A DNA stretch of 64,000 nucleotides from Pseudofrankia saprophytica. GTDB lineage: Bacteria > Actinomycetota > Actinomycetes > Frankiales > Frankiaceae. This document shows positions 5,289 through 18,023 of the stretch, one piece after another. Each line of letters begins with the position of its first letter. Positions within the stretch are counted from its first letter, which is position 1. Where the stretch lies: assembly GCF_000235425.2 (NCBI RefSeq), contig NZ_KI912266.1, positions 1,812,154-1,876,153 on the forward strand, read 5' to 3'. The notes beneath the pieces were generated by a model, which ran no database searches, was not told the DNA's origin, and was given only the letters and a program-made list of their open reading frames with translations. The position numbers and the translations under genes are program-made.

Positions 5289-5308
5289 TCAGCTATCTCT
5301 AGTCAGCT
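5281..5308. repeat. Perfect 14-bp tandem duplication at the bpa/tldE junction
   Basis: ATCTCTAGTCAGCT occurs twice head to tail (5281-5294, 5295-5308). Copy 1 carries the last bpa codons and its TAG; copy 2 carries the tldE stop (TCA at 5303-5305 on the plus strand). Confidence 0.95.
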
Positions 5309-6733
5309 CGCGGGACTGACCGAGCTCATGTGGAAGTCGGGTACGCGGATGGCCGGCATGCGGCTCAGCTTGAACCAGTCGGCCCATTCGCGGCCCAGAG
5401 TGCGGGTCGTGGCGCCGATCTCGGCGATCCGGCCGAGCAGGCTCACCGGGGACTCGTTGAACCGGAAGTTGTTCACGACCCCGGCGACCTCGCCGTTCTC
5501 GACGAGGTAGACGCCGTCCCTGGTCAGCCCGGTCAGGAGCAGGACCTCCGGATCCACCTCGCGGATGTACCACAGGCAGGTGAGCAGCAGTCCGCGTTTG
5601 GTCGAGGCGACCATCTCGTCCAGCGTGGCCGTGCCGCCGCCGTCCATCGTCAGGTTGTCGATGAACGGCGTGGCGGTGGTGCCGGCGGCGCGGGCGGAGG
5701 CGCGGGTGTGCACCAGCGTGGCGAGCTTGCCGTCCTCGAACCAGTCCGTCCGGCCGAGCGCGAGCCCGTTGTCGAACACGCTCGACGTCGCCGACGAGTG
5801 GCCGGAGGAGACGAACGGCGTGCAGGACAGCTCGGGATCGGCGGGGTCGCTGAACAACCGCAGGCCGGTCGGGCCGAAGGCCTCCCCAAGCCGGGTGCCT
5901 CCGCCAGCGCGGCTGAAGACCGTGCGTCCCTCGGCGGCATCCCGCCCCGCGGCCGACCAGTAGGCGTCGAGGATCAGATCCGAGACCGCCGACGGCGGCA
6001 GCAGCGTCTCGTACCTGCCCGCCGGGAGCTCCATCGAGCGGGCACACCAACCCAGGCGGCGGCGCAGCTCGGCATCCGTCGCGGCGACGTCGACATCGGC
6101 GAAGTCGTGCGTCGACTGGCCGTGCCACACCGAACCGCCGGGCTGCCCGTTCTTGGCGTTCCACTCGACGGAGCCGGTCGGCTGGCTGTGCCGCAGCCGC
6201 ACCCCGGTCGACGTGCCGAGCCAGGTGGTCGTCACGTCGTGCTCGGCGAAGCCGTAAAGCGCTCGGCCCTCCGCCCTGGCCGCGCGCAGCGCCTCGCCGA
6301 GGTCGGCGGCGAACGTCGAGAGCACCGCCGTCGACGTATGGCGGGCGGGCTCGTCGAAGGCGTCGTCGCCCGGCCCGGCCGTCGCGGTTCCCTGCTGGCC
6401 TGGAGCGAGCAGGTCCGCGAAGTCCTCGGCCTCGTCGGAGTCCTTCGCCGCCGTCTCCGACGCCCGGACGAGCTCGGTGAGCTTGTCGACGGCGATGCCC
6501 CCGGCCGTGCCGGAGTCGACCGAACTCACCGAGCTCACCGAGCGCACCCCGAACGAGCGGCCGACGATGCTGATCACGGTGACCGAGCGGTCGCGGGCGG
6601 CCCCGTTCGTCGTCAGGGTGTTGTTCGCCCAGCGCAGGTTCACGGTGCTCGACTCGCTGGCGATGACCACACAGCCATCGGCCCGCGAGGCGGCGAGCGC
6701 CCGCTCCACGATCTCGTGGGACGCCTCGGTCAC
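5303..6733 (-). CDS. tldE: TldE/PmbA-family metalloprotease subunit
   Basis: Partner subunit of the TldD/TldE heterodimeric protease, which in studied bacteria removes leaders from modified peptides and clears unfolded peptide. 476 residues from GTG at 6733, with GGGAGGA just upstream. It has the family N-terminal domain ([20 protein letters not shown]) and C-terminal beta-domain ([45 protein letters not shown]). It lacks an HExxxH motif, as TldE subunits do, so it should be the non-catalytic half. The tldD gene lies upstream on the same strand, 139 bp away, so both are probably co-transcribed. Confidence 0.9.
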
Positions 6734-6872
6734 CAGAGTCCTCCCGTATACGTTCCCAGCGGGCTGCGAGCCCGGGTCAGTCCAGTGCCCGTCAGCGTCA
6801 GTCCAGCACCCGTCGAACCAGCACCCACCGAACGGCTGCCGGGGCGCTGAGGCGGCGGACTGGCGGGGCGGG

Positions 6873-8438
6873 TCACCGGCCCGCTTCGTGGCGGGTGTTG
6901 AGGATGTTGATGCCGCGGAACAGCGTCGACGGGGCGCCGTGGCTGACCGCGGCGACCTGGCCGGGCTGCCCTTTGCCGCAGTTGAACGCCCCGCCGAGCT
7001 GGTAGGTCTGCTCACCGCCAAGACCGTCGAGGGAGCCCCAGAAGTCGGTCGTCGTCGCCTGGTAGGCGACGTCGCGCAGCTGGCCGACGATGCGTCCCTT
7101 GCGGATCTCGTAGAAGCGCTGCCCGGTGAACTGGAAGTTGTAGCGCTGCATGTCGATCGACCAGCTCTTGTCGCCGACGACGTAGATCCCGCGGTTGACC
7201 CCGCTGATCAGCTCGGTGGTCGACGGCCCGCCGGGCGCGGCCGCCAGCGAGACGTTGGCCATCCGCTGGATGGGCACATGCCCCGGCGAGTCGGCGAACG
7301 CGCAGCCGTTGGACCGGGTGACACCGAGCCGGGCGGCGTTCGCCGCCGCCATCCGGCGGTCGAGCTGAAAACCGACGAGCGTGCCGCCGCGGACGATGTC
7401 CCAACGGCTGGTCGCCACGCCCTCGTCGTCGTAGCCGATGGTCGCGAGCGCGTGCGGGGCGGTCCGGTCGCCGGTGACGTTCATCAGCGGCGAGCCGTAA
7501 CGCAGAGTACCCAGCTTGTCCAGGGTGGCGAACGAAGTGCCGGCGTAGGCGGCCTCGTAGCCGAGCGCCCGGTCGAGTTCGGTGGCATGCCCGACGGACT
7601 CGTGGATCGTGAGCCACAGGTTCGACGGGTCGATCACCAGGTCATAGCGCCCAGGCTCGACCGACGACGCCTTCGCCTTCTCCGCCAGCAGACCCGGGAT
7701 CGTCTCGATCTCGGCGTCCCAGTCCCAGCAGCCGGCGGCCGATCCGGAGACCAGCCACTCCCAGCCCCGGCCCACCGGGGGAGCGATGGTGCGCATGGTC
7801 TCGAAGCCGCCGCCAGGGTCGACCCTGGTCGCCTCCAGCTGGCAGAGCACCCGCACCCGCTGCTGCGTCGTCGAGGTGCCGGCCAGGTCGGCGTAGTACT
7901 TGTTCTCCAGGACGGCGTTGAAATGGCCGTCGACGTGGTCGACGTCGGAGGAGCCGAGCAGCGTGCGGCACAGCCCGCCGATCCGGTCGACCTTCGCGCG
8001 CGCGTCGATGGCGAACGGGTTCACCGCGTAGGCGGACACCCAGGTGGCGTCGGCGTGTACCGGCTCGTCGGCGAGCTCGATCGGCTCGGAGTTCAGCGGC
8101 CGGGCGACCTTAGCGATCTCGACGGCCTCGCGGGCGACCCGGACGGCCTCGTCCACGGTCAGGTCGACGCCGGCGGCGAACCCCCAGGTCCCCTCGTGCA
8201 CGACCCGGACGGCGAAGCCGACGGTCGCGCCGTCGTGGCTGCTCTCCAGGTTGCCGTCTCGGAACGACAGCGACCCGTCACGCAGCCGCTCGATGCGGAT
8301 GTCGGCGTGGCTGGCGCCGAGATCACGGGCGGTCTGCAGGGCCGCGTCGGTGAGCGCCGCGCGTGGCAGGGCGAGGAACTCGGGGTCGACGTCGTGTGGC
8401 GGCGTCCCGGGCGCTCCCGGCGGGGCGGCTATCGGCAT
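6873..8438 (-). CDS. tldD: TldD-family zinc metalloprotease
   Basis: Catalytic partner of TldE, 521 residues. The zinc motif HESVGH is at about residue 280 (LTIHESVGHATELDRALG), followed by the conserved TGDRTAPHALATIGYDDEG and a Cys-containing C-terminal segment (GGAFNCGKGQPGQ) that in TldD supplies the third zinc ligand. Start chosen at ATG 8438, with AGGA seven bases upstream; a further in-frame ATG at 8492 would add 18 residues. It is first in a two-gene minus-strand unit with tldE. TldD/E matures several RiPPs elsewhere; whether it acts on the precursors at 28.9-29.5 kb is only a guess. Confidence 0.93.
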   Translation of the reverse strand: MPIAAPPGAPGTPPHDVDPEFLALPRAALTDAALQTARDLGASHADIRIERLRDGSLSFRDGNLESSHDGATVGFAVRVVHEGTWGFAAGVDLTVDEAVRVAREAVEIAKVARPLNSEPIELADEPVHADATWVSAYAVNPFAIDARAKVDRIGGLCRTLLGSSDVDHVDGHFNAVLENKYYADLAGTSTTQQRVRVLCQLEATRVDPGGGFETMRTIAPPVGRGWEWLVSGSAAGCWDWDAEIETIPGLLAEKAKASSVEPGRYDLVIDPSNLWLTIHESVGHATELDRALGYEAAYAGTSFATLDKLGTLRYGSPLMNVTGDRTAPHALATIGYDDEGVATSRWDIVRGGTLVGFQLDRRMAAANAARLGVTRSNGCAFADSPGHVPIQRMANVSLAAAPGGPSTTELISGVNRGIYVVGDKSWSIDMQRYNFQFTGQRFYEIRKGRIVGQLRDVAYQATTTDFWGSLDGLGGEQTYQLGGAFNCGKGQPGQVAAVSHGAPSTLFRGINILNTRHEAGR

Positions 8439-8522
8439 GCTCCCATCCTGGACCGTCCGCGCCGATACCGGTGAGTCGGGGACCTGCGGCACGGCGGCTC
8501 GCCACGCCTACTCGGACCGCTG

Positions 8523-8830: not shown

Positions 8831-9610
8831 TCACGCCCGGTGGCTGGGCTGCCGGCACGACATCTCCTCGCCGCGCTGTTCCTTGCCGCGCTGCGGCGCG
8901 ATGCCGCCCTGCCGTGCCGTCGCGTCGCGCGCAGGCGGCACGTCGCGCCGTGTCGCGAGGCTTGCGGATGCCGCGACGACGGAGCTGGGTCCGGGGTGGC
9001 GCTCGTGGTAAAGCCGCGCCTGCCGGTGAGCGGCGCGCCTGGACAGACGGCTCTCGACCAGCGGTGAGGGCCGTAGGTCTACCCGTACGGTGGCGCCTCG
9101 GCGCAGCTCATCGCGAACCGTCAGCCACCGGTCCTCGGCCAGTCGGACCGCGTCCGTGAGCTCCGCCAGGCGACCTTTCCCCTCCTCGTCCTCGACGCGC
9201 GCGCGACTCGCCGCGATCAGGGCCTCCATGACCCAGTCCGCCCGCGGGCCGAACGGGTCCAACCGCGCTGGCTGGCCCGGCCTGGCGACCGTGTGGGCGA
9301 GGAAGGCCCGGGCGACACAGGACAACCGGAAGTCGAGCTGCTCGCGGTTGCGTCCGGCGAGCGTCAGGAACATCGGCCCGAGTCGGCCAGAGGCGGGCTG
9401 GGGGGCGCTATAAGAGGCGCGATGGGGTTCGCCGGCGTCGGGATCGATGCGCTCGACCCGAGCGCGGGATCCGTCTCCGGCGCGGTCGGCATCGTCGGCC
9501 CGGTCCGATCGGTCCGGCCCGAGGAGCAGGTCGGGATACGGGGGCACCAGCCCCGGCATGGTGTTGGCCTGCGATTCCTGTCTGGACCACGTCCTTGGCA
9601 TATTCGGCAT
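8831..9610 (-). CDS. Unknown protein, first copy of the module's AVRxAEDRW family
   Basis: 259 residues from ATG 9610, with AAGGAGG close upstream (a second in-frame ATG at 9601 has better spacing). The family is unknown to me. Residues from about 80 to 210 align with the gene at 12745-13209. Shared points include LT-x2-G-x-N-x2-QL-x2-RLS, an RxDW/RACW tryptophan, AV-R-x-AEDRW-x2-V-x2-EL-x-R, and an RP-x5-L-x-RR segment. The first ~78 residues are Asp/Arg-rich and have no counterpart in the paralogue; translation could instead begin at ATG 9373, but no ribosome site is there. No signal peptide or membrane helix is evident. Largely helical and charged. It is divergent from the small gene at 10212. 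Confidence 0.7.
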   Translation of the reverse strand: MPNMPRTWSRQESQANTMPGLVPPYPDLLLGPDRSDRADDADRAGDGSRARVERIDPDAGEPHRASYSAPQPASGRLGPMFLTLAGRNREQLDFRLSCVARAFLAHTVARPGQPARLDPFGPRADWVMEALIAASRARVEDEEGKGRLAELTDAVRLAEDRWLTVRDELRRGATVRVDLRPSPLVESRLSRRAAHRQARLYHERHPGPSSVVAASASLATRRDVPPARDATARQGGIAPQRGKEQRGEEMSCRQPSHRA

Positions 9611-10211
9611 CGCCTCCTTGAAGACGCCCCGCCGGTCAGGACAGGGTGGTCGATGACCGGCGGTGCCGCGGACTCAGAGTTCCACGGCGGTGGGGTGGAC
9701 CGTCGTGGCGCCTGTTCCGCCGGGGTGCTTGCGGGACCTGCGGGGTCAGGGAGCGGACTGGCGCCGCGTCTGTCTCGGCTGTACCAGAATCGTGCGGCCT
9801 CGAGCGGTCCCCAAGCAAGACTTGTTGAGGAATATTTTAGGTGAACGGAAGAATTGTGCGTCACAGTCGAGAAGTAGGGGAATAGTCACCCAAAGTTACC
9901 AACCGGGTCACGCGGGCATCAGTGCCGGTACCTCGGTGGCCGCGACGAGCGCGGGGACCTCGACCGCCGCGCGCGCCGGAGGCCGGCGGGCTAAAAGCGG
10001 CGCCTCGACCTCTCGGCGCGCGGCCTGAGATCCGCCGATCACGCCTGATGGCACCTTGTTCCAGCAAAGTTACGGCGGTTTCGATACGCCCATGCTCCAA
10101 TAGATTCACAATCACCGCGCCGACCCGGGTGGTAGGGGACCATCCGAGCCACGCGAGGCCGCAGTACGTCCAGCGGTGGCGCCGGGTCGTGCCCAGGAAA
10201 GGACGCGCGAC
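9611..10211. promoter_or_regulatory. 600-bp divergent spacer with AT-rich segments
   Basis: No convincing gene. It contains distinctly AT-richer patches (about 9805-9900 and 10075-10115) unlike the surrounding coding DNA, consistent with promoters for the minus gene at 9610 and the plus gene at 10212, and with acquired DNA. Confidence 0.5.
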
Positions 10212-10574
10212 ATGCCCACCATCACGCTGGCGAGGAGTCACTGCGCCGCCGCGAACTGCCCCGGCGTCCACGTGCACGAGGACTCGGGCACCGGATACGT
10301 GGTGGGCGTCGTGGCCGATGTTCCCCCGCGAGGGGTCCAGGTCGGGCCGGGCGAGGCCGTCGTCGTGCTGCCCGCGGACGTGACCGCGACGGCCGCCGCC
10401 GCCCGCCTGCTTCCGGGCCTCTCCCCGTTCGTGTCCTGGCCCGGCGTACTGGTCGACCGGGAGTCTGGCATCGGGTACGTGGTGGGCCGGCGGGCGCCGA
10501 CGCCGCCGGCGGGCGTGGCGGCGGGTCCGGGCGAGGCCGTCGTTGCCGTCTCCGACGTGCTCGCAAGGGTGTAG
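10212..10574 (+). CDS. Small Cys-Pro module protein with internal duplication
   Basis: 120 residues. ATG 10212 has AAAGGA eight bases upstream. The N-terminal half carries the pattern shared by the small genes at 11117, 13642 and 14302: C-x4-CP-x-V, then a Gly followed by VV-x-G, a variable stretch, GEA-x-V-x-(I/L)P-x-(D/E) and an Ala-rich helix (here HCAAANCPGV, GYVVGVV, PGEAVVVLPADV). The C-terminal half repeats the pattern without the cysteines (WPGVLVDRESGIGYVVG, then PGEAVVAVSDVL). This suggests a duplicated beta-rich unit. The layout resembles DUF397 proteins, which accompany XRE-DUF5753 regulators, but the DUF397 sequence motif itself is absent. Function unknown. Confidence 0.75.
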   Translation: MPTITLARSHCAAANCPGVHVHEDSGTGYVVGVVADVPPRGVQVGPGEAVVVLPADVTATAAAARLLPGLSPFVSWPGVLVDRESGIGYVVGRRAPTPPAGVAAGPGEAVVAVSDVLARV

Positions 10575-10584
10575 GCGGGTAGGT

Positions 10585-10610
10585 GCGGGTCGGCGCCGGC
10601 GCCGACCCGC
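10585..10610 (+). terminator. 26-bp perfect palindrome after the small gene
   Basis: GCGGGTCGGCGCC is followed directly by its reverse complement, starting 10 bases past the stop codon at 10574. Terminator-like. Confidence 0.65.
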
Positions 10611-11116
10611 GGAACGCCGCGTGCTCGGCGGTAGCTCGGTCGTGACCGGCCGGCTCGCGGAGAATTCCGGCCTGGGCCCGCATCGTCGACGAAGATCGAC
10701 CGAATTCCCGGCCGCATGACAAGCTGACATGACCCGTTCGGATTACGCGGGAGCCGTGACGGGCCTGGTCGCCCACGTCACCAGTAGTCTCTTCACGCTA
10801 AGTTGTTGCTACGGAAAGTAGCGATATTCTTACCTTATGCGTTGAGTTCCTCTGCCGTATCGGGGCGAATCGGTCAATTCGCGAAGCCGGCTGAGTGTGG
10901 ACTGGGGTGGCGGACGTGGCACCATCAGGGAATCGCGATGACGCCGGCTGCCAGCGAGACCCCGCAGGGTAGCCGGGCGTCGCGGCCGAAGCCTGTGACC
11001 CGGGCAACTATTCTTGGCTGCTTCCCAACCCCGTGGCATAAGTCAAGATCTGACAGAGATATTCTGGACTTGCGGCCCGGGCCTGAGTAGGGTCATGGGC
11101 TGCGGAGGAGTTGACG
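10611..11116. promoter_or_regulatory. Spacer upstream of the second small gene and XRE regulator
   Basis: About 500 bp with no convincing gene. It is AT-richer around 10780-10870 and has a small hairpin GCTAC-ggaaa-GTAGC at 10807-10821. It probably holds the promoter for 11117-12368. Confidence 0.4.
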
Positions 11117-11326
11117 ATGCAGCTCGTTCCCTTGGCGATCACCTGTAACGCGGGCGCCTGCCCGACGGTGTACGCCGACGCCGATGACGCCTCGGTGCTG
11201 TGGGTACAGGGATGGACGCCAGACCCCGCGTACGTGCGCGACCTGCCGACGGGAGAGGCGATGGTCAGGATTCCGCGGGACCTGCTCGTCGATGCCGCGA
11301 GCAGTTTGCCCCAGTCGCCGAAGTAG
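11117..11326 (+). CDS. 69-residue Cys-Pro module protein, partner of the downstream XRE regulator
   Basis: ATG 11117 has GGAGGAG six bases upstream. The protein begins MQLVPLAITC and shows the module pattern: C-x4-CP-TVYA, VLWVQGW, PTGEAMVRIPRDLLVDAASSL. It is close to the protein at 14302 (MELVPLAQTSC, then GEARVQIPRDLLIRAARSL). The XRE-DUF5753 gene follows 70 bp later on the same strand, so the two are probably one transcript. No family name known to me; the role is inferred only from this pairing, which parallels DUF397/XRE pairs in Streptomyces. Confidence 0.8.
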   Translation: MQLVPLAITCNAGACPTVYADADDASVLWVQGWTPDPAYVRDLPTGEAMVRIPRDLLVDAASSLPQSPK

Positions 11327-11396
11327 CGTCCAGCGGCCGTCGGAGGATCACGGGGGAGCAGCGTAGGCGACCTCGGCACCACCGGTAGGGGAGACG

Positions 11397-12368
11397 ATGA
11401 GCGGCGAAAGAATCGACGCGGACGCCTTCGCGCCGGTTCCAGAAAACTTCCTCGATCTCTCGTCATCCTCTTCCGAATCCTCCGACGAGTCCCTGGGCGG
11501 CATCCTGGCCCGCCTACGCCACGACCAGGGCCTGACCGGCCACCAGCTCGCCGAGAAGGCCGGGATCAGCCAGGGACAGATCTCCAAGATTGAGAACTCC
11601 AAGACGCTGCCGTCGCCGGAGGACGTCCGACGTATCAGTACGGCGCTGCATGCGTCGCCCAAGGTGGTCGAGACCTTGGTAGACGAGGCAAAACAGCAGC
11701 AGCAGCTGGCCAGGACAAAGGGAACGCGCCGGCCGGCTCTTGGCCGAACTGGCACCATCAACCAGCAGGAAGTGCTCGACGAAGAGGGCAAGGCCCAGCA
11801 CGTGCGCGACTTCCAGCCGGTCCTGCTGCCAGGCCTGCTCCAGACAAGCGAGTACACCCGCCGGGTTCTGAACGGGTACAACGAGCTGACCTACGGCGAG
11901 GACAGCAAGGGCTGGCCGGATACCGCGGCCGCCGTGACGCTACGAGCGCAGCGCCAGCAGCGCCTCTACGACACCACCAGGCATTTCGAGTTCGTCATCA
12001 TGGAAGCGGTGTTCCACAACCGGTTCGCGGCCGTGGAATGGCCGGGGTTCATGGTCGGTCAGCTTCAGCGGATCAAAGCGGCCGCGGGGCTCCAGAACGT
12101 CTCGATCCGGATCCTGCCGCTCGACACCGTGCTCCGATACCCGCCGATCTCGGGCTTCACCATCATGGACGAATCCACGGTGGTCAACGAGACGACGGCC
12201 GGCACCGTCGATCGGGATCGCGGTCGCGTCAGCCTGTACATCCGGGTGTTCGAGCAGCTCATGGAGCTGGGCACCGACGATCTGGACCCCATCTTGAATC
12301 GCCATCTGAGCCGCTTCGCCACCGAGCTCGCCGAGCAGGCCGCCGAAGCAGTCCGAACCGGACCCTAG
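11397..12368 (+). CDS. XRE-family regulator with DUF5753 domain, first copy
   Basis: 323 residues. After a ~30-residue Ser-rich start, an XRE helix-turn-helix lies at about residues 36-95 (LRHDQGLTGHQLAEKAGISQ, GQISKIENSKTLPSPEDV). The DUF5753 ligand-sensing-type domain follows (QHVRDFQPVLLPGLLQTSEY, DTAAAVTLRAQRQQRLYD, FEFVIMEAVFHNRF). The family includes WhiJ-like developmental regulators in Streptomyces, which repress until relieved by small partners. The start is ATG 11397 behind GGGGAGAC. It is paralogous over its whole length to the regulator at 14577. Confidence 0.92.
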   Translation: MSGERIDADAFAPVPENFLDLSSSSSESSDESLGGILARLRHDQGLTGHQLAEKAGISQGQISKIENSKTLPSPEDVRRISTALHASPKVVETLVDEAKQQQQLARTKGTRRPALGRTGTINQQEVLDEEGKAQHVRDFQPVLLPGLLQTSEYTRRVLNGYNELTYGEDSKGWPDTAAAVTLRAQRQQRLYDTTRHFEFVIMEAVFHNRFAAVEWPGFMVGQLQRIKAAAGLQNVSIRILPLDTVLRYPPISGFTIMDESTVVNETTAGTVDRDRGRVSLYIRVFEQLMELGTDDLDPILNRHLSRFATELAEQAAEAVRTGP

Positions 12369-12694
12369 CGCCTGGCGCCGCCTCGGGCATGATCGCGATT
12401 TCGGCCCTCGGGTGGTCGTGGCTGCTGGTCGTTCCACGTTCACCAGAGGTCGCAACCGGCGATCGCGTCAATGGGCTTCCTCGGCAGTTACGGCACTGGC
12501 CCATTTCGGTCTCGCGGGTGGTTGCTGATCGGCGCGGAGGTGCCCCCGCCTGTGGCGGCCCCCGGTAACAGGACCGCCACAGGCCCGCTGGCACCGTTGC
12601 CGCGGCTGGCATGGTCGCCATGACCCGCTGGTCGGCTCCCACTGGCGTGGGTAATCAGGGGCGGACCTAACCCGGTCGATGCGCCCAACGAGGC
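12369..12694. other. Intergenic, no gene seen
   Basis: About 325 bp between the XRE gene and the hairpin at 12695. No frame here has protein-like composition. Confidence 0.5.
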
Positions 12695-12736
12695 GCCTCG
12701 GCCGGGCCACCCCCCGAGGGTGGCCCGGGCCGAGGC
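12695..12736. terminator. Strong hairpin shared by convergent genes
   Basis: GCCTCGGCCGGGCCACCC pairs with 12718-12736 with one bulged base and a CCCGA loop. It lies nine bases past the stop of the minus gene at 12745 and downstream of the plus-strand regulator. Confidence 0.75.
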
Positions 12737-12744
12737 TGTCTGGG

Positions 12745-13209
12745 TCACCCGTGGCGGGTGAGCTGTCGATCGTCAGTTCGTGGCCGCGCGGCGCGGTAGA
12801 GGAATGCCCCCGAGTGACGACCCGCGCTGGTGCGCTGCGCCGGCAAGATGCGCCGGCGGGCGAGTTCAGGGACGAATACGGGTCCGTCGGGCCGCATGTC
12901 GGCCCGGGCGGTCTCCTCGCGGCTCAGCTCGACGCAAACTGCCTCCCAGCGGTCTTCCGCTTGGCGAACCGCGGTGACGAGCGCGCGCTTCGAGCCGATC
13001 TCGTCCTGGTCGAGGAAAAGACGGATTGCGTCAAAGAGTGCGTCGGCCATCCAGCAGGCGCGTTCCGATCGGATGTCCAGTCGGGCCGCTCGATGCGATC
13101 GAGTATCCGTGTACCGAGTGAACTCGCGAACTAGCCAGGACAACCGGACCTGGAGTTGCTGACAGTTGGTGCCAGTGGCGGTCAGATAGCAGCTTGTCAA
13201 CATGGACAC
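12745..13209 (-). CDS. Unknown protein, second copy of the AVRxAEDRW family
   Basis: 154 residues from GTG 13209 (ATG 13203 is equally possible; neither has a clear ribosome site). It aligns end to end with residues 80-210 of the protein at 8831-9610: LTATGTNCQQLQVRLSW, RAARLDIRSERACW, AVRQAEDRWEAVCVELSR, RADMRPDGPVFVPELARRR. Conserved Trp, Arg and AEDRW positions suggest a folded helical domain. No known family recognised. It sits in the same place relative to the small genes and XRE gene as its paralogue, transcribed away from them. Confidence 0.75.
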   Translation of the reverse strand: MSMLTSCYLTATGTNCQQLQVRLSWLVREFTRYTDTRSHRAARLDIRSERACWMADALFDAIRLFLDQDEIGSKRALVTAVRQAEDRWEAVCVELSREETARADMRPDGPVFVPELARRRILPAQRTSAGRHSGAFLYRAARPRTDDRQLTRHG

Positions 13210-13641
13210 GCGATCACGTCCAGTCGGGCGCCTTTGCCCGCAAACCCAGACCTGGTATGGCGAGCGTCGAACGACCCCCGATACCCTGGCCAGGTACTAC
13301 TAAGGAATCCGTGGTAAGAGCCCCCTGCGCGCGACATATTCCGACGCACCTCCTGCCTGACGGGCTGTCGACCGGTAGGTCGAACAGGTCCTGATCAGAA
13401 GGTAGACGACTGCCGGCGTCACCACAAGGCCTATGGATGAATATAGTCCATGATCTTAATGTGTATCGGGCCGGTGTGAATACTTGTGTCTTCCCAGAGG
13501 TCATCACCGGTTCGCCGGCCGCCCGGTCCCCGGACGTCTTGGCTGGTCGTCGGCGGCTGGGCCGCGCCCACGACACACCTGACGGTGATCGCGGCCCGGA
13601 CGTCGGCCCCGGCCTCAGGACCTGGCTGCGTGGCGCTCGCC
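13210..13641. promoter_or_regulatory. Spacer with an AT-rich patch
   Basis: About 430 bp without a gene. An AT-richer patch at about 13435-13495 stands out. It lies upstream of the minus gene at 13209 and downstream of the minus gene ending at 13642. Confidence 0.4.
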
Positions 13642-13848
13642 CTAGTCGACCCCGTCGAGGGCCGCGTCGGCCGCCGCCCGGAACAACTCGCTGGGAATCT
13701 CGACCAGCACCTCACCAGTCGAGGTGCGGACGTCGAGCGCGCTGGCGTCCAACAGAACACCCTGGACCACGATTGTGCCGCTGTCAGTGGCGTAGACCTG
13801 GGGACACGAGCCGCTGGGGCAGCTCGCCGTCAAAGGAGTCAGTCGCAT
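13642..13848 (-). CDS. 68-residue Cys-Pro module protein on the minus strand
   Basis: ATG 13848, with AGAGG about ten bases upstream. It begins MRLTPLTASC and carries the module pattern: C-x4-CPQVYA, SGTIVVQGVLL, TGEVLVEIPSELFRAAADAAL. It is the same family as 10212, 11117 and 14302. It is divergent from 14302, whereas the corresponding small gene of the first module (10212) points the other way. Function unknown. Confidence 0.72.
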   Translation of the reverse strand: MRLTPLTASCPSGSCPQVYATDSGTIVVQGVLLDASALDVRTSTGEVLVEIPSELFRAAADAALDGVD

Positions 13849-14301
13849 CGAGGCTGGCCTCTCTGTGCGGGTCCCGCGCTCTCGCAGATGTCGTCGGCGC
13901 GAGGGCGCGGCCGGTGGAGGATCCTCCTGCCGGCCGACGGAACCTTCTCTCTTGATTGGAACATGTCGACGCCGGCTCCGGCGCAAGTTTGGTGGGCCAA
14001 CGAGCGCCAGTCGGCCAGCGGTGCTGGGCCACCGCCAAGCGGGAGTTGCCATGACATGGGGCGCCGAGCGTGCCTCAGGCTGCCCGAAGGTGATTTCTAG
14101 TGCGCGGCGGGACGTTCCAGCGTTCCGCCGCGCCGATCGGCGGCGTGCCGACGAGGGGCACTGAGTGGCGGATCGCGGCGGCCGGCCTAGTATTCCCCCC
14201 TGGGGGGCGCCCAATCCTGCCCTCGCAAGATTCCTAGTATCGACTCTTTCATAGTCCGTCGGCGGGTATATGATGTTGAAGCCGCGGAGGGAGTAGGGGC
14301 A
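13849..14301. promoter_or_regulatory. Divergent promoter region of the second module
   Basis: Lies between small genes starting at 13848 (minus) and 14302 (plus). For the plus gene, a TATATGAT-type -10 at about 14267-14274 lies ~28 bases before the ATG, followed by GGAGGGAG. No other gene seen. Confidence 0.5.
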
Positions 14302-14514
14302 ATGGAGCTCGTTCCGCTCGCGCAAACCAGTTGTGGGTCGTCCACCTGTCCCGGGGTGTTCGAGGCGCCCGACGGCTCGGTCGTGGTCCAGGGGTACGTC
14401 GTGCCGGCGCCGCGCACTGCCGACGAGGTGCCGGACGGTGAGGCTAGAGTGCAGATTCCACGTGACCTCCTGATCCGGGCGGCGCGCAGCCTGCCAGACT
14501 GGGATGGGCGTTAG
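14302..14514 (+). CDS. 70-residue Cys-Pro module protein, partner of the second XRE regulator
   Basis: ATG 14302 behind GGAGGGAGTAGGGG. It carries the module pattern: MELVPLAQTSC-x3-TCPGVF, GSVVVQGYVV, DGEARVQIPRDLLIRAARSL. It is the closest relative of the gene at 11117, and in the same position: immediately upstream (62 bp) of an XRE-DUF5753 gene on the same strand. Two Cys and one Pro are kept in all four family members, so a metal or disulfide role is possible but unproven. Confidence 0.8.
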   Translation: MELVPLAQTSCGSSTCPGVFEAPDGSVVVQGYVVPAPRTADEVPDGEARVQIPRDLLIRAARSLPDWDGR

Positions 14515-14576
14515 TTGGCCTGACCGAGCGGGTTCCGGCCCGGGGTGATGGTCTCGCGTTCGAGCGGAGGTCAGTC

Positions 14577-15482
14577 GTGACGGACGAGGTGGGGTTCGGT
14601 CCGTCGCTGAGTGCCGAGCCAAGCTCCTCGTCCGCACCGCTGGCCGAGGAGCTTGGCCGTGCGCTCCATGGGCTTCGCCGGCGCAAGGGAATGACCGGCG
14701 AAGCCCTCGGGCAGGCCGTCGGAGTCAGTCAGGCCAAGATCTCCAAGATCGAACGGGGCGTGCTGAAGCCCAGCCTGCTCGATGTCGAGAAGATCGTCCT
14801 GGCTCTTGACGGCTCCAAGGACGAGCTGCATGAGTTCGTCGCGCTGGCGACACAGGTCCAGACCGCCGGTGCCAGGCCGCGAGGACCGCGCCGCGGACCG
14901 GCGAACCAGCACGACTACGCCGAGGCCGAGGGGCGCGCCCAGCTGATCCGGAACTTCGAGCCCATCGCGATTCCCGGGCTGATGCAGATCAGCGAGTACA
15001 CGCGCCGGGTGATCAATGCCTTTCACGCCGTCGACATCGGTGAGGACCAGTCGAAGTGGGCCGACACCGCGGCGATGGTCACCCTGCGCGCGCAGCGCCA
15101 GGAACGTCTCTACGACCGCGCCAAGACGTTCGAGTTCATCATCATGGAGAGCGTGCTCAGTAACCGTTTTGTCACGCCTGGATACATGCTGGCGCAGGTG
15201 GACCGGATCGAGCAGGTGGCCAAACTGCCCAACGTGACCGTGCGGGTGGTACCCGCCACGGCGCAGCTCGGCATCCCCCCGATCCACGGTTTCCATCTGT
15301 TCGACGATGACATGGTGATTACCGAGTCACTCGACGCCACGGTCTCTCAGGACCGCCGCAGCGTCGACTTTTACACCCACTTCTTCGAAAGCTACCGTGA
15401 GATCGCCGATGCCGATCTCACTGACGTGCTGGAGCGGCATAAGCACATGTACGCCGCGCTTGCGCTTCCCAGGCTGGACTGA
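14577..15482 (+). CDS. XRE-family regulator with DUF5753 domain, second copy
   Basis: 301 residues. GTG 14577 is preceded by GGAGG six bases upstream. The XRE helix-turn-helix lies at about residues 27-80 (LHGLRRRKGMTGEALGQAVG, VSQAKISKIERGVLKPSLLD). The DUF5753 domain follows (QLIRNFEPIAIPGLMQISEY, DTAAMVTLRAQRQERLYDRA, FEFIIMESVLSNRF). It aligns throughout with the regulator at 11397, diverging most in the N-terminus and in the ligand-domain loops, which fits duplicated regulators with separate partners. The gene is convergent with the HAD gene ending at 15557. Confidence 0.92.
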   Translation: MTDEVGFGPSLSAEPSSSSAPLAEELGRALHGLRRRKGMTGEALGQAVGVSQAKISKIERGVLKPSLLDVEKIVLALDGSKDELHEFVALATQVQTAGARPRGPRRGPANQHDYAEAEGRAQLIRNFEPIAIPGLMQISEYTRRVINAFHAVDIGEDQSKWADTAAMVTLRAQRQERLYDRAKTFEFIIMESVLSNRFVTPGYMLAQVDRIEQVAKLPNVTVRVVPATAQLGIPPIHGFHLFDDDMVITESLDATVSQDRRSVDFYTHFFESYREIADADLTDVLERHKHMYAALALPRLD

Positions 15483-15556: not shown

Positions 15557-16345
15557 TCAGGCGAAAAGGCGTTCCAGGACGAGGGCTACGCCGTCGTTGT
15601 CGTTGGAGGCGGTGATTTCGTCGGCGGCGGCCAGGACGTCGGGGTGGGCGTTGGCGACGGCGACGGCGTGGCCAGCCCAGGCGAGCATGGGCAGGTCGTT
15701 GAGCATGTCGCCGAAGGCGACGACGTCGTCGGCGGTCACGCCGCGTTTGGCGGCCACCTGGGCGAGCGCGACGGCCTTGGAGACACCTGCCCCGGCGATC
15801 TCGACCAGCGTCTCGGTCGACCGGGTGACCATGGCCTCCCCGCCGGCCAAGGCCACGATCTTCTCGTAGACATCGGCGAGCGACTCACCGCCGCGCCGCA
15901 CCAGCAGCTTGGCTGGCGGCAGCGTGACCAGCAGGTCGGTCACATCGGCGACGAGCTCGTCCGGATCCGGCCACATCGTCAAGAAGAGTGGCTCGCGGCC
16001 GAACTTGATCCCGCTCTCGACGGCGAATGCAGCCTCCGGCACGATCTCGCGGATCGCCAGCGCCAGTCGGAGGGCGGCGTCCGGATCCAGCCCACTCTGG
16101 TTGATCATGATGTTGGTGTCGAGGTCGTAGACGAGTGCCCCGTTCGCGCAGACGGCGATGCCGGCGACGGAGGTCTTGGCGACGACGTCCGCCATGACCC
16201 GGATTGGCCGTCCGGTGACGAACACGACCGATCCGCCGTGCTCGCGGACCCGGCGCAGCGCACGGCGGGTGCGCTCCGACACCGTGCCGTCCGATCGGAT
16301 CAGTGTTCCATCCAGATCAGTGGCAACTATCGCGGGAGGGGACAC
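15557..16345 (-). CDS. HAD-superfamily hydrolase, Cof type
   Basis: 262-residue phosphatase of the Cof/type IIB HAD group, acting on small phosphorylated metabolites; substrate unknown. Motif I TDLDGTLIRSDG lies at residues 8-19, motif II is VFVTGRP, motif III is the lysine near VSKAVAL and motif IV is AFGDMLNDLPML. The GTG at 16345 places motif I at the usual distance. No neighbouring gene suggests the substrate. Confidence 0.88.
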   Translation of the reverse strand: MSPPAIVATDLDGTLIRSDGTVSERTRRALRRVREHGGSVVFVTGRPIRVMADVVAKTSVAGIAVCANGALVYDLDTNIMINQSGLDPDAALRLALAIREIVPEAAFAVESGIKFGREPLFLTMWPDPDELVADVTDLLVTLPPAKLLVRRGGESLADVYEKIVALAGGEAMVTRSTETLVEIAGAGVSKAVALAQVAAKRGVTADDVVAFGDMLNDLPMLAWAGHAVAVANAHPDVLAAADEITASNDNDGVALVLERLFA

Positions 16346-16750
16346 AGCGACTCAGTCAACCAGCGTGCGGCGGTCCATACCATGGTCACGACGCTCATAC
16401 CGGCGTCAGATCCCTGTCAACCGGGAGGAAGTACCCGTTCCCGCGGGCACCTGTGGTCCAGCCGGGTGAATCGCCGTGCTCTCCGGCCGCTGCCGCCGCC
16501 CCTGCCGCCGCTGCTGGTCGCGGGCGGCCCTCTCGGCGCCGGCGCGCCGTTCCGCGCCGGTCGTCGCACCACGCCGGTCGCCCGGGGTTACCGGTGAAGA
16601 TCGTGCCGCGGCGAGTCGGGAGCGTCAGCCGGGTAACATGCGGTTCATGAGGTCTGTCGGTGCCCGGAGCGCCCAGGGTTCCCGTCGGATCGGCGGGGGT
16701 CTGGCGCGAGGCCGGCGGGTGCGTGCCGTCGCTCTGGAGGACTGCCGGCT
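16346..16750. promoter_or_regulatory. Divergent spacer between HAD gene and hisE
   Basis: About 400 bp with no gene seen. It should contain promoters for the HAD gene and for the his genes. The hisE ribosome site GGAGGA is at 16735-16740. Confidence 0.4.
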
Positions 16751-17014
16751 GTGAAGAGCTTCGACGAGCTGTACGGCGAGCTCTCCGGGAAGTGGGAGCA
16801 GAAGGCGCCGGGGTCCGGGTCCGTGGCCGCCCTCGAGGCGGGTGTGCACCACATCGGCAAGAAACTGGTCGAGGAAGCCGCGGAAAGCTGGATGGCGGCG
16901 GAGCATGAGAGCCGTGAGCGAGCCGCCGAGGAGCTCTCCCAGCTGGTCTACTGGATTCAGCTCATGATGATCTCGCGGGGTCTGACCCCGGCGGACGTCT
17001 ACTCCCATCTGTAG
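16751..17014 (+). CDS. hisE: Phosphoribosyl-ATP pyrophosphatase
   Basis: Second enzyme of histidine synthesis: hydrolyses phosphoribosyl-ATP to phosphoribosyl-AMP. 87 residues, the normal length for a free-standing HisE. The MazG-like all-alpha fold is visible in [19 protein letters not shown] and [18 protein letters not shown], which carry the acidic magnesium ligands. GTG 16751 is about ten bases after GGAGGA. hisG follows on the same strand, an arrangement typical of actinobacteria where hisE-hisG stand apart from the main his operon. Confidence 0.95.
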
Positions 17015-17177
17015 CCCGCGCCTCGGGGCTCGCGTGCCCTTGGAGTGGCGCGGGCGTTGACCGGTGCGCGGGACGATGTCGCGCGCCTCGAAGAGCCCCT
17101 GTGAGCCCCCGACCCGCTGTGAGCCCGATCCGCCGTGAGTTCCGGACCCCGCCACGGCCAGCCTCGATGGAATGATC

Positions 17178-18023
17178 ATGCTGCGTATCGCGGTACCGAA
17201 CAAGGGCGCGCTCTCCGCCGCCTCCAGCCAACTGCTCTGCGACGCCGGCTACCTGGCGAAGCGCGAGGGCGCCGAGCTTGTCGTCGCCGACCTTGAGAAC
17301 GACATCGAGTTCTTCTTCCTGCGGCCGCGCGATATCGCGGTCTACGTCGGCTCCGGGCGGCTAGATGTCGGTATTACCGGCCGTGACCTGCTGCAGGACA
17401 GCGGCGTCGCCGCGCTGGAGCTGGTCGCGCTCGACTTCGGGCACTCGTCGTTCCACTACGCGGCGCCGAAGGGCGCCATCACCGACGTGGCCCAGCTGGA
17501 CGGCGCCAGGATCGCGACCTCGTTCCCTGAGCTCGTCCGCACCGACTTCGCGGCCCGCGGCCTGCGGGCCGAGGTCGTCACCCTCGACGGCGCCGTCGAG
17601 ACGGCCGTGCGGCTGGGTGTCGCCGATGCCATCGCGGACGTCGTCGAGACCGGCCGCACGCTGCGCGCCGCGGGCCTCGAGCTGATCGGTGAGTCGGTGA
17701 TGCAGTCGCAGGCCATCATGATTGCCAAGCAGGGCACGGAACTGTCGCCGTCGCACGAGAAGCTGCTGCGTCGCGTGCAGGGTGTCCTGGTCGCCCGCCA
17801 GTACGTGATGATGGACTACGACGCGCCGGTGGTGGTGCTCGAGAAGGCCTGCGAGATCACGCCGGGCTACGAGTCGCCGACGATCTCGCCGCTGCAGCGC
17901 GAGGGCTGGGTCGCGGTGCGGGCGATGGTGCCGAAGGACGAGGTCAACCGCACGATGGATGACCTTTGGGAGCTGGGTGCCCGCGGCATCCTCGTCTCCG
18001 CCATCCAGGCCTGCCGCCTGTAG
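17178..18023 (+). CDS. hisG: ATP phosphoribosyltransferase, long form
   Basis: First, feedback-controlled enzyme of histidine synthesis. 281 residues from ATG 17178 (an in-frame ATG at 17172 is two codons upstream). It is the long, HisZ-independent form with a C-terminal regulatory ACT-like domain. Landmarks: MLRIAVPNKGALS at the start, DVGITGRDLLQD, the PRPP loop DAIADVVETGRTLRAAGLEL and the C-terminal VPKDEVNRTMDDLWELGARG. It lies 163 bp after hisE and ends before the strong hairpin at 18113. Confidence 0.95.
   Translation: MLRIAVPNKGALSAASSQLLCDAGYLAKREGAELVVADLENDIEFFFLRPRDIAVYVGSGRLDVGITGRDLLQDSGVAALELVALDFGHSSFHYAAPKGAITDVAQLDGARIATSFPELVRTDFAARGLRAEVVTLDGAVETAVRLGVADAIADVVETGRTLRAAGLELIGESVMQSQAIMIAKQGTELSPSHEKLLRRVQGVLVARQYVMMDYDAPVVVLEKACEITPGYESPTISPLQREGWVAVRAMVPKDEVNRTMDDLWELGARGILVSAIQACRL

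Follow-up and report, generated by a model that had tools for sequence, protein, structure and literature searches.

With which partner proteins, and through which DNA sites, would a duplicated XRE-DUF5753 regulator act? The question is raised by a 64,000-nt stretch of the Pseudofrankia saprophytica genome (9.98 Mb, two contigs), hereafter called the window, in which two tandem copies, A and B, of one gene set are found between a tldD-type gene on one side and HAD-hisE-hisG (15557-18023) on the other. Each copy consists of an AEDRW gene, small Cys-Pro genes and a gene for an XRE-DUF5753 regulator. The reading that we favour, with a probability of about 0.58 for the whole of it, is that this is an old, vertically inherited and duplicated regulatory locus that would work, by analogy, like the WhiJ/BldB module of Streptomyces: the XRE protein would control its own operon and the AEDRW gene through TATTC sites, with the small acidic protein as co-regulator.

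Streptomycetes are reported to carry ten or more WhiJ-like XRE regulators (PMC4255298), and XRE/DUF397 pairs are described as affecting antibiotic production and differentiation (PMC10364602). For the known proteins of these clusters, a cytoplasmic location was predicted throughout (PMC4255298). The present locus points to a second, widespread small-protein partner that has no family model, and to a fourth gene, specific to the Frankia family and often predicted to encode a membrane protein. It also offers a candidate DNA site at both promoters, concrete enough for bench testing, and provides the Frankia family with a conserved candidate regulatory locus, duplicated in one genus.

A small protein family next to XRE-DUF5753 regulators

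The initial annotation of this DNA had described two side-by-side copies of a four-gene set, paralogous at every position, with only the first small gene flipped in copy B. All eight open reading frames are indeed found where it had placed them (Table 1), and copies A and B are paralogous at each gene position. The two XRE proteins share 44% identity over 279 amino acids (E 3e-78), the two AEDRW proteins 41% over 133 (E 4e-20), and the small proteins of the window align with 24-54% identity to the first row of the alignment, with P, V, G, GE and V invariant and a Cys pair present in four of the five aligned stretches. Small A1 is made of two half-domains, its DNA repeats lying 180 bp apart and its second half-domain being devoid of the Cys pair, while A2, B1 and B2 are single-domain proteins of 68-70 amino acids. 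The flipped orientation of B1 is also seen in the fetched relatives that carry copy B; its most likely start is the ATG at 13848, and the list of open reading frames places the gene inside an open frame of 331 amino acids. In the window, the gap between the small gene and the XRE gene is 70 bp in copy A and 62 bp in copy B.

Only the two XRE proteins, among the eight, match known families: both carry HTH_31 (PF13560) and DUF5753 (PF19054) above the cut-offs. Among NCBIfam models, that of the Sco1979 regulator family comes closest to them, at a score below its cut-off, and in PADLOC they match the HTH parts of models. Their pN/pS ratio (amino-acid changes relative to synonymous changes) is 0.11-0.27 in two pairs, and the regulators are under purifying selection. 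The small proteins have no Pfam or NCBIfam match under E 0.05, in particular no Pfam DUF397 match, and neither they nor the AEDRW proteins match anything in PHROGs or PADLOC. The genome has two DUF397 matches at E ≤ 0.001, both outside the locus (C1:1125750 and C1:916942). The proposal that the small partner and AEDRW are of other families agrees with this absence of Pfam matches to DUF397 or AbaA-type domains. The small frames, for which coding conservation had been left to be checked, proved to be genuine genes: synonymous changes exceed amino-acid changes in six gene pairs (pN/pS 0.0-0.36), and the small proteins are coding and under purifying selection.

The distribution of the small family was surveyed across the class with a profile built from 24 small proteins, run against 295 genomes of 102 genera. 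Matches were found in 77 of the genomes and 25 of the genera, patchily: 20 of the 23 genomes of the Frankia family have one, as do 57 of the 272 outside it. Rows from inside and outside the Frankia family belong to the same protein family (hhalign E 9.6e-28). Forty loci were then opened, one best match per genome, comprising the 39 better-scoring of the 57 outside genomes and one genome of the Frankia family (G015); the remaining 18 outside genomes with a match, and second matches, lie beyond this co-occurrence sample. An XRE-DUF5753 gene stands directly downstream of the small gene, on the same strand, in 35 of these 40 loci, with a DUF6879 (PF21806) gene between the two in 23 of the 35; in the other five, one of which lies at a contig end, DUF6879 is the only one of the two neighbours seen. 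Any XRE-DUF5753 gene at all was present in 36 of the 40 fetched stretches, versus 1 of 20 control stretches, which came from other places in 20 of these genomes.

The AEDRW gene has a much narrower range. With a wide AEDRW profile, 22 of 35 Frankia-family genomes, from three of seven genera, have a match; in the class sample it is present in 18 of the 295 genomes, all in the Frankia family, and in none of the 272 outside. The co-occurrence of the four genes in other genomes, which the initial annotation had put forward as a check, was recovered in part, and neither of the two outcomes that it had named as refuting was obtained: the small gene and its regulator are linked across the class, and AEDRW accompanies them inside the Frankia family and nowhere else in the sample. 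Since the one linkage is class-wide and the other confined to the family, the general unit is the small protein plus XRE, often with DUF6879, and the four-gene set is the Frankia family's own version of it.

DUF397 is encoded in 8 of the 40 opened stretches (in one, L112, as a weak match only); it is absent from the 20 control stretches and from 20 Frankia-family loci. In one operon, at L141 (G041:C654), the order is small - DUF6879 - XRE - DUF397, with both kinds of small partner around a single regulator. These counts, together with that operon, mean that the small family is not simply a stand-in for DUF397; it is a partner in its own right. The predicted structure of small B2 (predicted local distance difference test score, pLDDT, 74.6, from 17 sequences) places the Cys-Pro just before strand 2 and a QG at the end of strand 3; the alignment behind it excludes the two-domain forms, a single longer form that reads through, and a row in which one residue is unknown. 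The model has no PDB match at E ≤ 0.001. Its order of four strands followed by one last helix is the order reported for DUF397 (PMC7159879). On models and profiles of this kind, a distant homology between the small proteins and DUF397 is neither shown nor excluded.

Further small-family genes were noted elsewhere in the same genome, at L006, L007 and L008 (C1:2075408, 3441192 and 902993): one beside an XRE-DUF5753 gene, one in a small-DUF6879-XRE operon, and one, diverged, beside a DUF6082 gene. DUF6879 is present at L007 and is not found between small gene and XRE gene in the window set. One query with a small-family protein matched two plasmid records, of which one has a length of 11.9 Mb.

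The place of the locus is well conserved. The window shows the order tldD - AEDRW - small gene(s) - XRE - HAD - hisE - hisG, as do 15 of the 20 loci fetched from the Frankia family, one of which (L033) has the HAD-hisE-hisG part inverted; the remaining five (L039, L040, L045, L046 and L052) reach a contig end and show part of the order. The relatives include Frankia nepalensis CN7 (G030), Frankia sp. AgB1.9 (G033), a Frankia metagenome bin (G034), Pseudofrankia sp. BMG5.36 (G032), P. asymbiotica (G028), Parafrankia sp. EUN1f (G021) and P. soli (G020). The position of the locus is common to three genera, the window's own and two others: g6, which these names identify as Parafrankia, and g2, which at a guess is Frankia in the strict sense. 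Genera g2 and g6 have a single set. Both copies are present in six of the eight genomes of the window's genus, the other two being F. nepalensis CN7, with copy B only, and the metagenome bin, where the contig ends. In Frankia sp. AgB1.9, a third small-XRE pair lies at L034:6085-7289, its XRE gene broken over several frames.

This conservation bears on a quite different explanation, that of a type II toxin-antitoxin pair. The small protein would be the toxin and XRE its antitoxin, in keeping with the prediction made for DUF397-XRE pairs (PMC2701414). An XRE gene beside a small gene, with sites at the shared promoter (see below), fits such a pair, and so does the patchy spread of the small family outside the Frankia family. 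Against it stand the inheritance of the locus in place across three genera, the position of the small gene upstream of XRE, and the report that overexpression of the DUF397 protein Scr2 is not toxic (PMC6262351); we hold it to be very improbable.

TATTC sites at two promoters

The motif TATTC was chosen by eye from upstream DNA of the window's genus and counted in the 260 bp upstream of each gene, with G022 set aside. It occurs in all 28 regions upstream of XRE-linked small genes, with 47 sites (shuffled sequences: mean 4.4, maximum 10), versus 1 of 13 regions before other small genes and 1 of 68 before tldD, HAD, hisE and hisG. The density of forward TATTC is 6.46 per kb before XRE-linked small genes versus 0.42 per kb in the surrounding DNA. 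Because the motif was picked in the window's genus, the regions of g2 and g6 and the AEDRW promoters are fairer tests. In g2 and g6, TATTC is found in 13 of 13 small-XRE regions, mostly as single sites in g2, and 18 of 22 AEDRW promoters have it, with 28 sites (shuffles: mean 3.0, maximum 12). What is observed is presence: TATTC sites are present at both promoters. These common sites make a shared control of the AEDRW and small-XRE promoters likely.

At least two sites are found in 16 of 28 small-gene regions and in 9 of 22 AEDRW regions, both window copies of the latter included. Adjacent sites are 38-43 bp apart in 19 of 29 cases overall (11 of 19 before small genes, 8 of 10 before AEDRW). 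The pair upstream of AEDRW_B flanks a promoter-like sequence, TTCACA-16-TAAGAT, at 13480-13453, the sole match of its kind in 7.3 kb, where 0.5 are expected.

The favoured reading can be put as a sequence of steps. In each copy, the XRE-DUF5753 protein would recognise TATTC direct repeats, often in pairs separated by some four turns of the helix, at the promoter of its own operon (small gene, then XRE) and at that of AEDRW. The small acidic Cys-Pro product of this operon would bind XRE and tune its DNA binding, in the role proposed for BldB-like DUF397 proteins, and the basic AEDRW protein would be the controlled output, in the position that abaA or iosA occupies in Streptomyces. The binding of XRE to TATTC, its contact with the small protein, the sign of the control and the action of AEDRW are all inferred.

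Several observations weigh against this reading. In the window's genus all 13 AEDRW regions have sites, in g2 and g6 only 5 of 9; with most of the AEDRW sites thus coming from one genus, our confidence is slightly lower. The AEDRW count itself covers 22 of 27 genes, the other five having an unclear start or lying near a contig end. Pairing is not general, as the counts above indicate, and the window deviates from the usual spacing, with distances of 50 and 51 in copy A and a single full TATTC before small B2. The regions compared are orthologues and paralogues rather than independent events, some genomes being nearly identical here, and elsewhere in the class TATTC is found in 11 of 40 small-gene promoters, so that it is not a feature of the whole small family. 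A scan for TATTC-N33-48-TATTC over some 72 Mb, the eight genomes of the window's genus, gave 66 matches, 17 of them in the locus: 3 of 8 in the window's genome, 4 of 8 in G029, 4 of 14 in Frankia sp. AgB1.9, 3 of 11 in G031, 1 of 5 in P. asymbiotica, 1 of 9 in Pseudofrankia sp. BMG5.36, 1 of 10 in F. nepalensis CN7 and 0 of 1 in the metagenome bin. The 49 matches outside the locus compare with 7 in all for the backwards pattern, meaning that such pairs exceed this control outside the locus too, and as the pairing rule was read from the same loci the scan measures specificity and is not an independent test. Two further points concern the proteins. When the small family was compared with 30 DUF397 sequences, hhalign gave a probability of 0.6%, and 13 of 200 column-permuted controls reached at least the same score; AEDRW changes fast, with a pN/pS of 0.40-0.80 in seven pairs.

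The uneven presence of sites before AEDRW in g2 and g6 also lends something to a narrower view, in which only the small protein and XRE make up the module, and AEDRW, as would tldD and hisE-hisG, stays beside them through conserved gene order. Small-XRE pairs do occur outside the Frankia family without AEDRW, and the whole block from tldD to hisG is conserved. Yet AEDRW was duplicated with the rest, being present in both copies in most genomes of the genus, and its promoters carry TATTC far more often than those of tldD, HAD, hisE and hisG; a bystander AEDRW is, on balance, quite unlikely.

One TATTC pair outside the locus is kept in three genomes of the genus (G000:C1:998183-998238, G028:C125:96468 and G032:C274:40228) and could be a further target or just conserved DNA. 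In another part of the class, CGCAATTGC was noticed by eye near the start in the small-XRE promoters of L116, L118, L120, L121, L124, L125, L129, L134 and L135, and is a candidate operator of that other lineage. Different promoter motifs, TATTC in one and CGCAATTGC in the other, are what one would expect if each XRE lineage had its own site.

Table 1. Genes and TATTC sites of the duplicated locus and its tldD-side flank (window coordinates; pI, isoelectric point; aa, amino acids)
Feature	Coordinates	Strand	Remarks
AEDRW_A	8831..9610	-	259 aa, pI 10.5, without predicted membrane helix; profile match E 2.9e-38
Small Cys-Pro A1	10212..10574	+	120 aa, two tandem half-domains
Small Cys-Pro A2	11117..11326	+	69 aa, pI 4.1
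XRE_A (XRE-DUF5753 regulator)	11397..12368	+	323 aa
AEDRW_B	12745..13209	-	154 aa, pI 9.8, four-helix model
Small Cys-Pro B1	13642..13848	-	68 aa, pI 4.0; flipped
Small Cys-Pro B2	14302..14514	+	70 aa, pI 4.4; model with four strands, then one helix
XRE_B (XRE-DUF5753 regulator)	14577..15482	+	301 aa
Paired TATTC upstream of AEDRW_A	9830..9884	-	spacing 50
Paired TATTC upstream of small A2 / XRE_A	11009..11064	+	spacing 51
Paired TATTC upstream of AEDRW_B	13439..13482	-	spacing 39
TATTC within CTAGTATTC, upstream of small B2 / XRE_B	14191..14195	+	no second full TATTC
TldD-type metallopeptidase gene (flank)	6873..8492	-	same direction as AEDRW_A
Second PmbA/TldD-type frame after tldD	5303-7021		in the window

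The AEDRW gene and the age of the duplication

AEDRW has no Pfam or NCBIfam match at E ≤ 1, and no AbaA-like HATPase or antisigma neighbour is seen in the set. Third codon positions vary most in eight of nine AEDRW pairs, as expected of a coding gene. The model of AEDRW_B is nearly all helix, with four helices (pLDDT 77.2), and has no PDB match at E ≤ 0.001. Two apparent matches were set aside. The AEDRW profile matched 9gwu_B, a chain of sulfoquinovose dehydrogenase, which we take to be a Rossmann enzyme, at E 1.9e-6; this was judged a chance match because it covers part of the dehydrogenase while the AEDRW model is nearly all helix. A 22-bit match of G003 to the first AEDRW profile was also put down to chance, since it was gone with the wider profile, which gained G022 instead.

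Many AEDRW genes of the relatives contain membrane-like stretches: all five g6 genes (three stretches each), six of the eight g2 genes and five of the six copy-A genes of the window's genus (the window's own being the exception), and only one of the eight copy-B genes. These counts were obtained with a hydropathy cut-off over whole stop-to-stop frames, in which a stretch may precede the true start. A lost membrane part of the window's AEDRW_A was sought by tblastn with the copy-A proteins of two relatives: no helix match better than E 0.2 was obtained, and the AEDRW domain was found with one of the two (E 0.003). In the favoured reading, the ancestral AEDRW was probably a membrane-bound protein, of which copy B would be a derived, soluble form.

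This raises the possibility that AEDRW is not an output but a sensor or partner at the membrane, holding or releasing the small protein or XRE, in what would be one-step signalling from membrane to DNA. The frequency of membrane-like stretches in g6, in g2 and among the copy-A genes speaks in its favour; a gene under the control of the same site can still be a sensor, and the membrane form leaves room for such a role. No such stretch is present, however, in either window copy or in seven of the eight copy-B genes, and the hydropathy search was run on stop-to-stop frames. We consider a sensor role unlikely.

A fourth view looks for the output in the flanking peptidase. In 10 of the 13 g2 and g6 loci, the AEDRW stop lies 21-112 bp from the TldD start, in the same direction, and the window has a second PmbA/TldD-type frame (Table 1); tldD and tldE may be read together with AEDRW as one operon. 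AEDRW would then lead this operon, and its TATTC-controlled promoter would set the level of the TldD-TldE peptidase. The gap is, on the other hand, 237-495 bp in the seven loci measured in the window's genus and 172-1244 bp in the three other g2 and g6 loci, no tldD lies behind the copy-B AEDRW where both copies exist, and the TldD starts were chosen by a script. That the peptidase is the output seems highly unlikely.

Let us return to the favoured reading, of which an old duplication is a part. In the XRE tree, copies A and B form separate groups (support 87/82 and 94/92), which the single copies of g2 and g6 join weakly on the B side (81/71). The topology that unites A and B in one clade was rejected (p 0.0195); this test was set up once the first tree was known, and two long outgroup rows were omitted from it. 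A recent duplication is accordingly not favoured. The duplication looks old, with long branches that make this uncertain; a second copy arising before the split of the genera, or a faster evolution of copy A, are both possible.

If the membrane forms and the duplication are taken together, a bolder scheme can be drawn, which we put forward as a tentative and rather improbable one: a membrane-linked switch of the WhiJ type, in which an anchored AEDRW would sense the state of the envelope or cell surface and set XRE through the non-DUF397 small family. XRE would control AEDRW and itself through TATTC, and after the duplication A would have become the membrane branch and B the soluble one, each with its own sites.

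Comparison with known systems

In the open-licence literature that was searched, neither the small Cys-Pro family nor AEDRW was found described, nor does the word DUF6879 appear in it; as the first two are nameless families, this is weak evidence of novelty.

The predicted toxin-antitoxin pairs of the XRE-DUF397 kind likewise consist of an XRE protein and a small partner. Unlike them, the present set has a fixed chromosomal place in three genera, a small protein that profile search assigns to another family, and an extra gene. The small-DUF6879-XRE-DUF5753 operons of actinobacteria have the same small family and the same order, small gene first, and differ from the window set by the DUF6879 gene inserted between the two.

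The WhiJ, BldB (DUF397) and AbaA or IosA loci of Streptomyces offer a close parallel. There too an XRE-DUF5753 regulator adjoins a gene for a small acidic partner, a further distinct gene lies next door, direct repeats are found in intergenic DNA, and paralogous sets occur within one genome. WhiJ9 is reported to bind direct repeats between whiJ9 and iosA and to drive iosA; BldB itself is reported to have shown no DNA binding, and an action of a small partner on WhiJ has been proposed (PMC10294661, PMC4255298, PMC6262351). IosA of Streptomyces venezuelae is described as a basic 15-kDa protein with a predicted structure unlike any solved one (PMC10294661); both AEDRW proteins of the window are basic as well, a likeness of description only. 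There are also differences. The window set has no DUF397, AbaA or HATPase domain, and its small gene lies upstream of XRE, whereas it lies downstream in the published XRE/DUF397 pairs (PMC10364602). Its fourth gene has no family model and frequently has membrane stretches in relatives, in contrast to Streptomyces, where a cytoplasmic location is predicted for all three cluster proteins (PMC4255298). The repeats at the promoter of the neighbouring gene, here TATTC in most AEDRW promoters, are as in the WhiJ/BldB loci. Lacking the DUF397 and AbaA features, the module can be classed as a variant of the WhiJ type that has in common with it the regulator and, as far as sequence can tell, the style of site.

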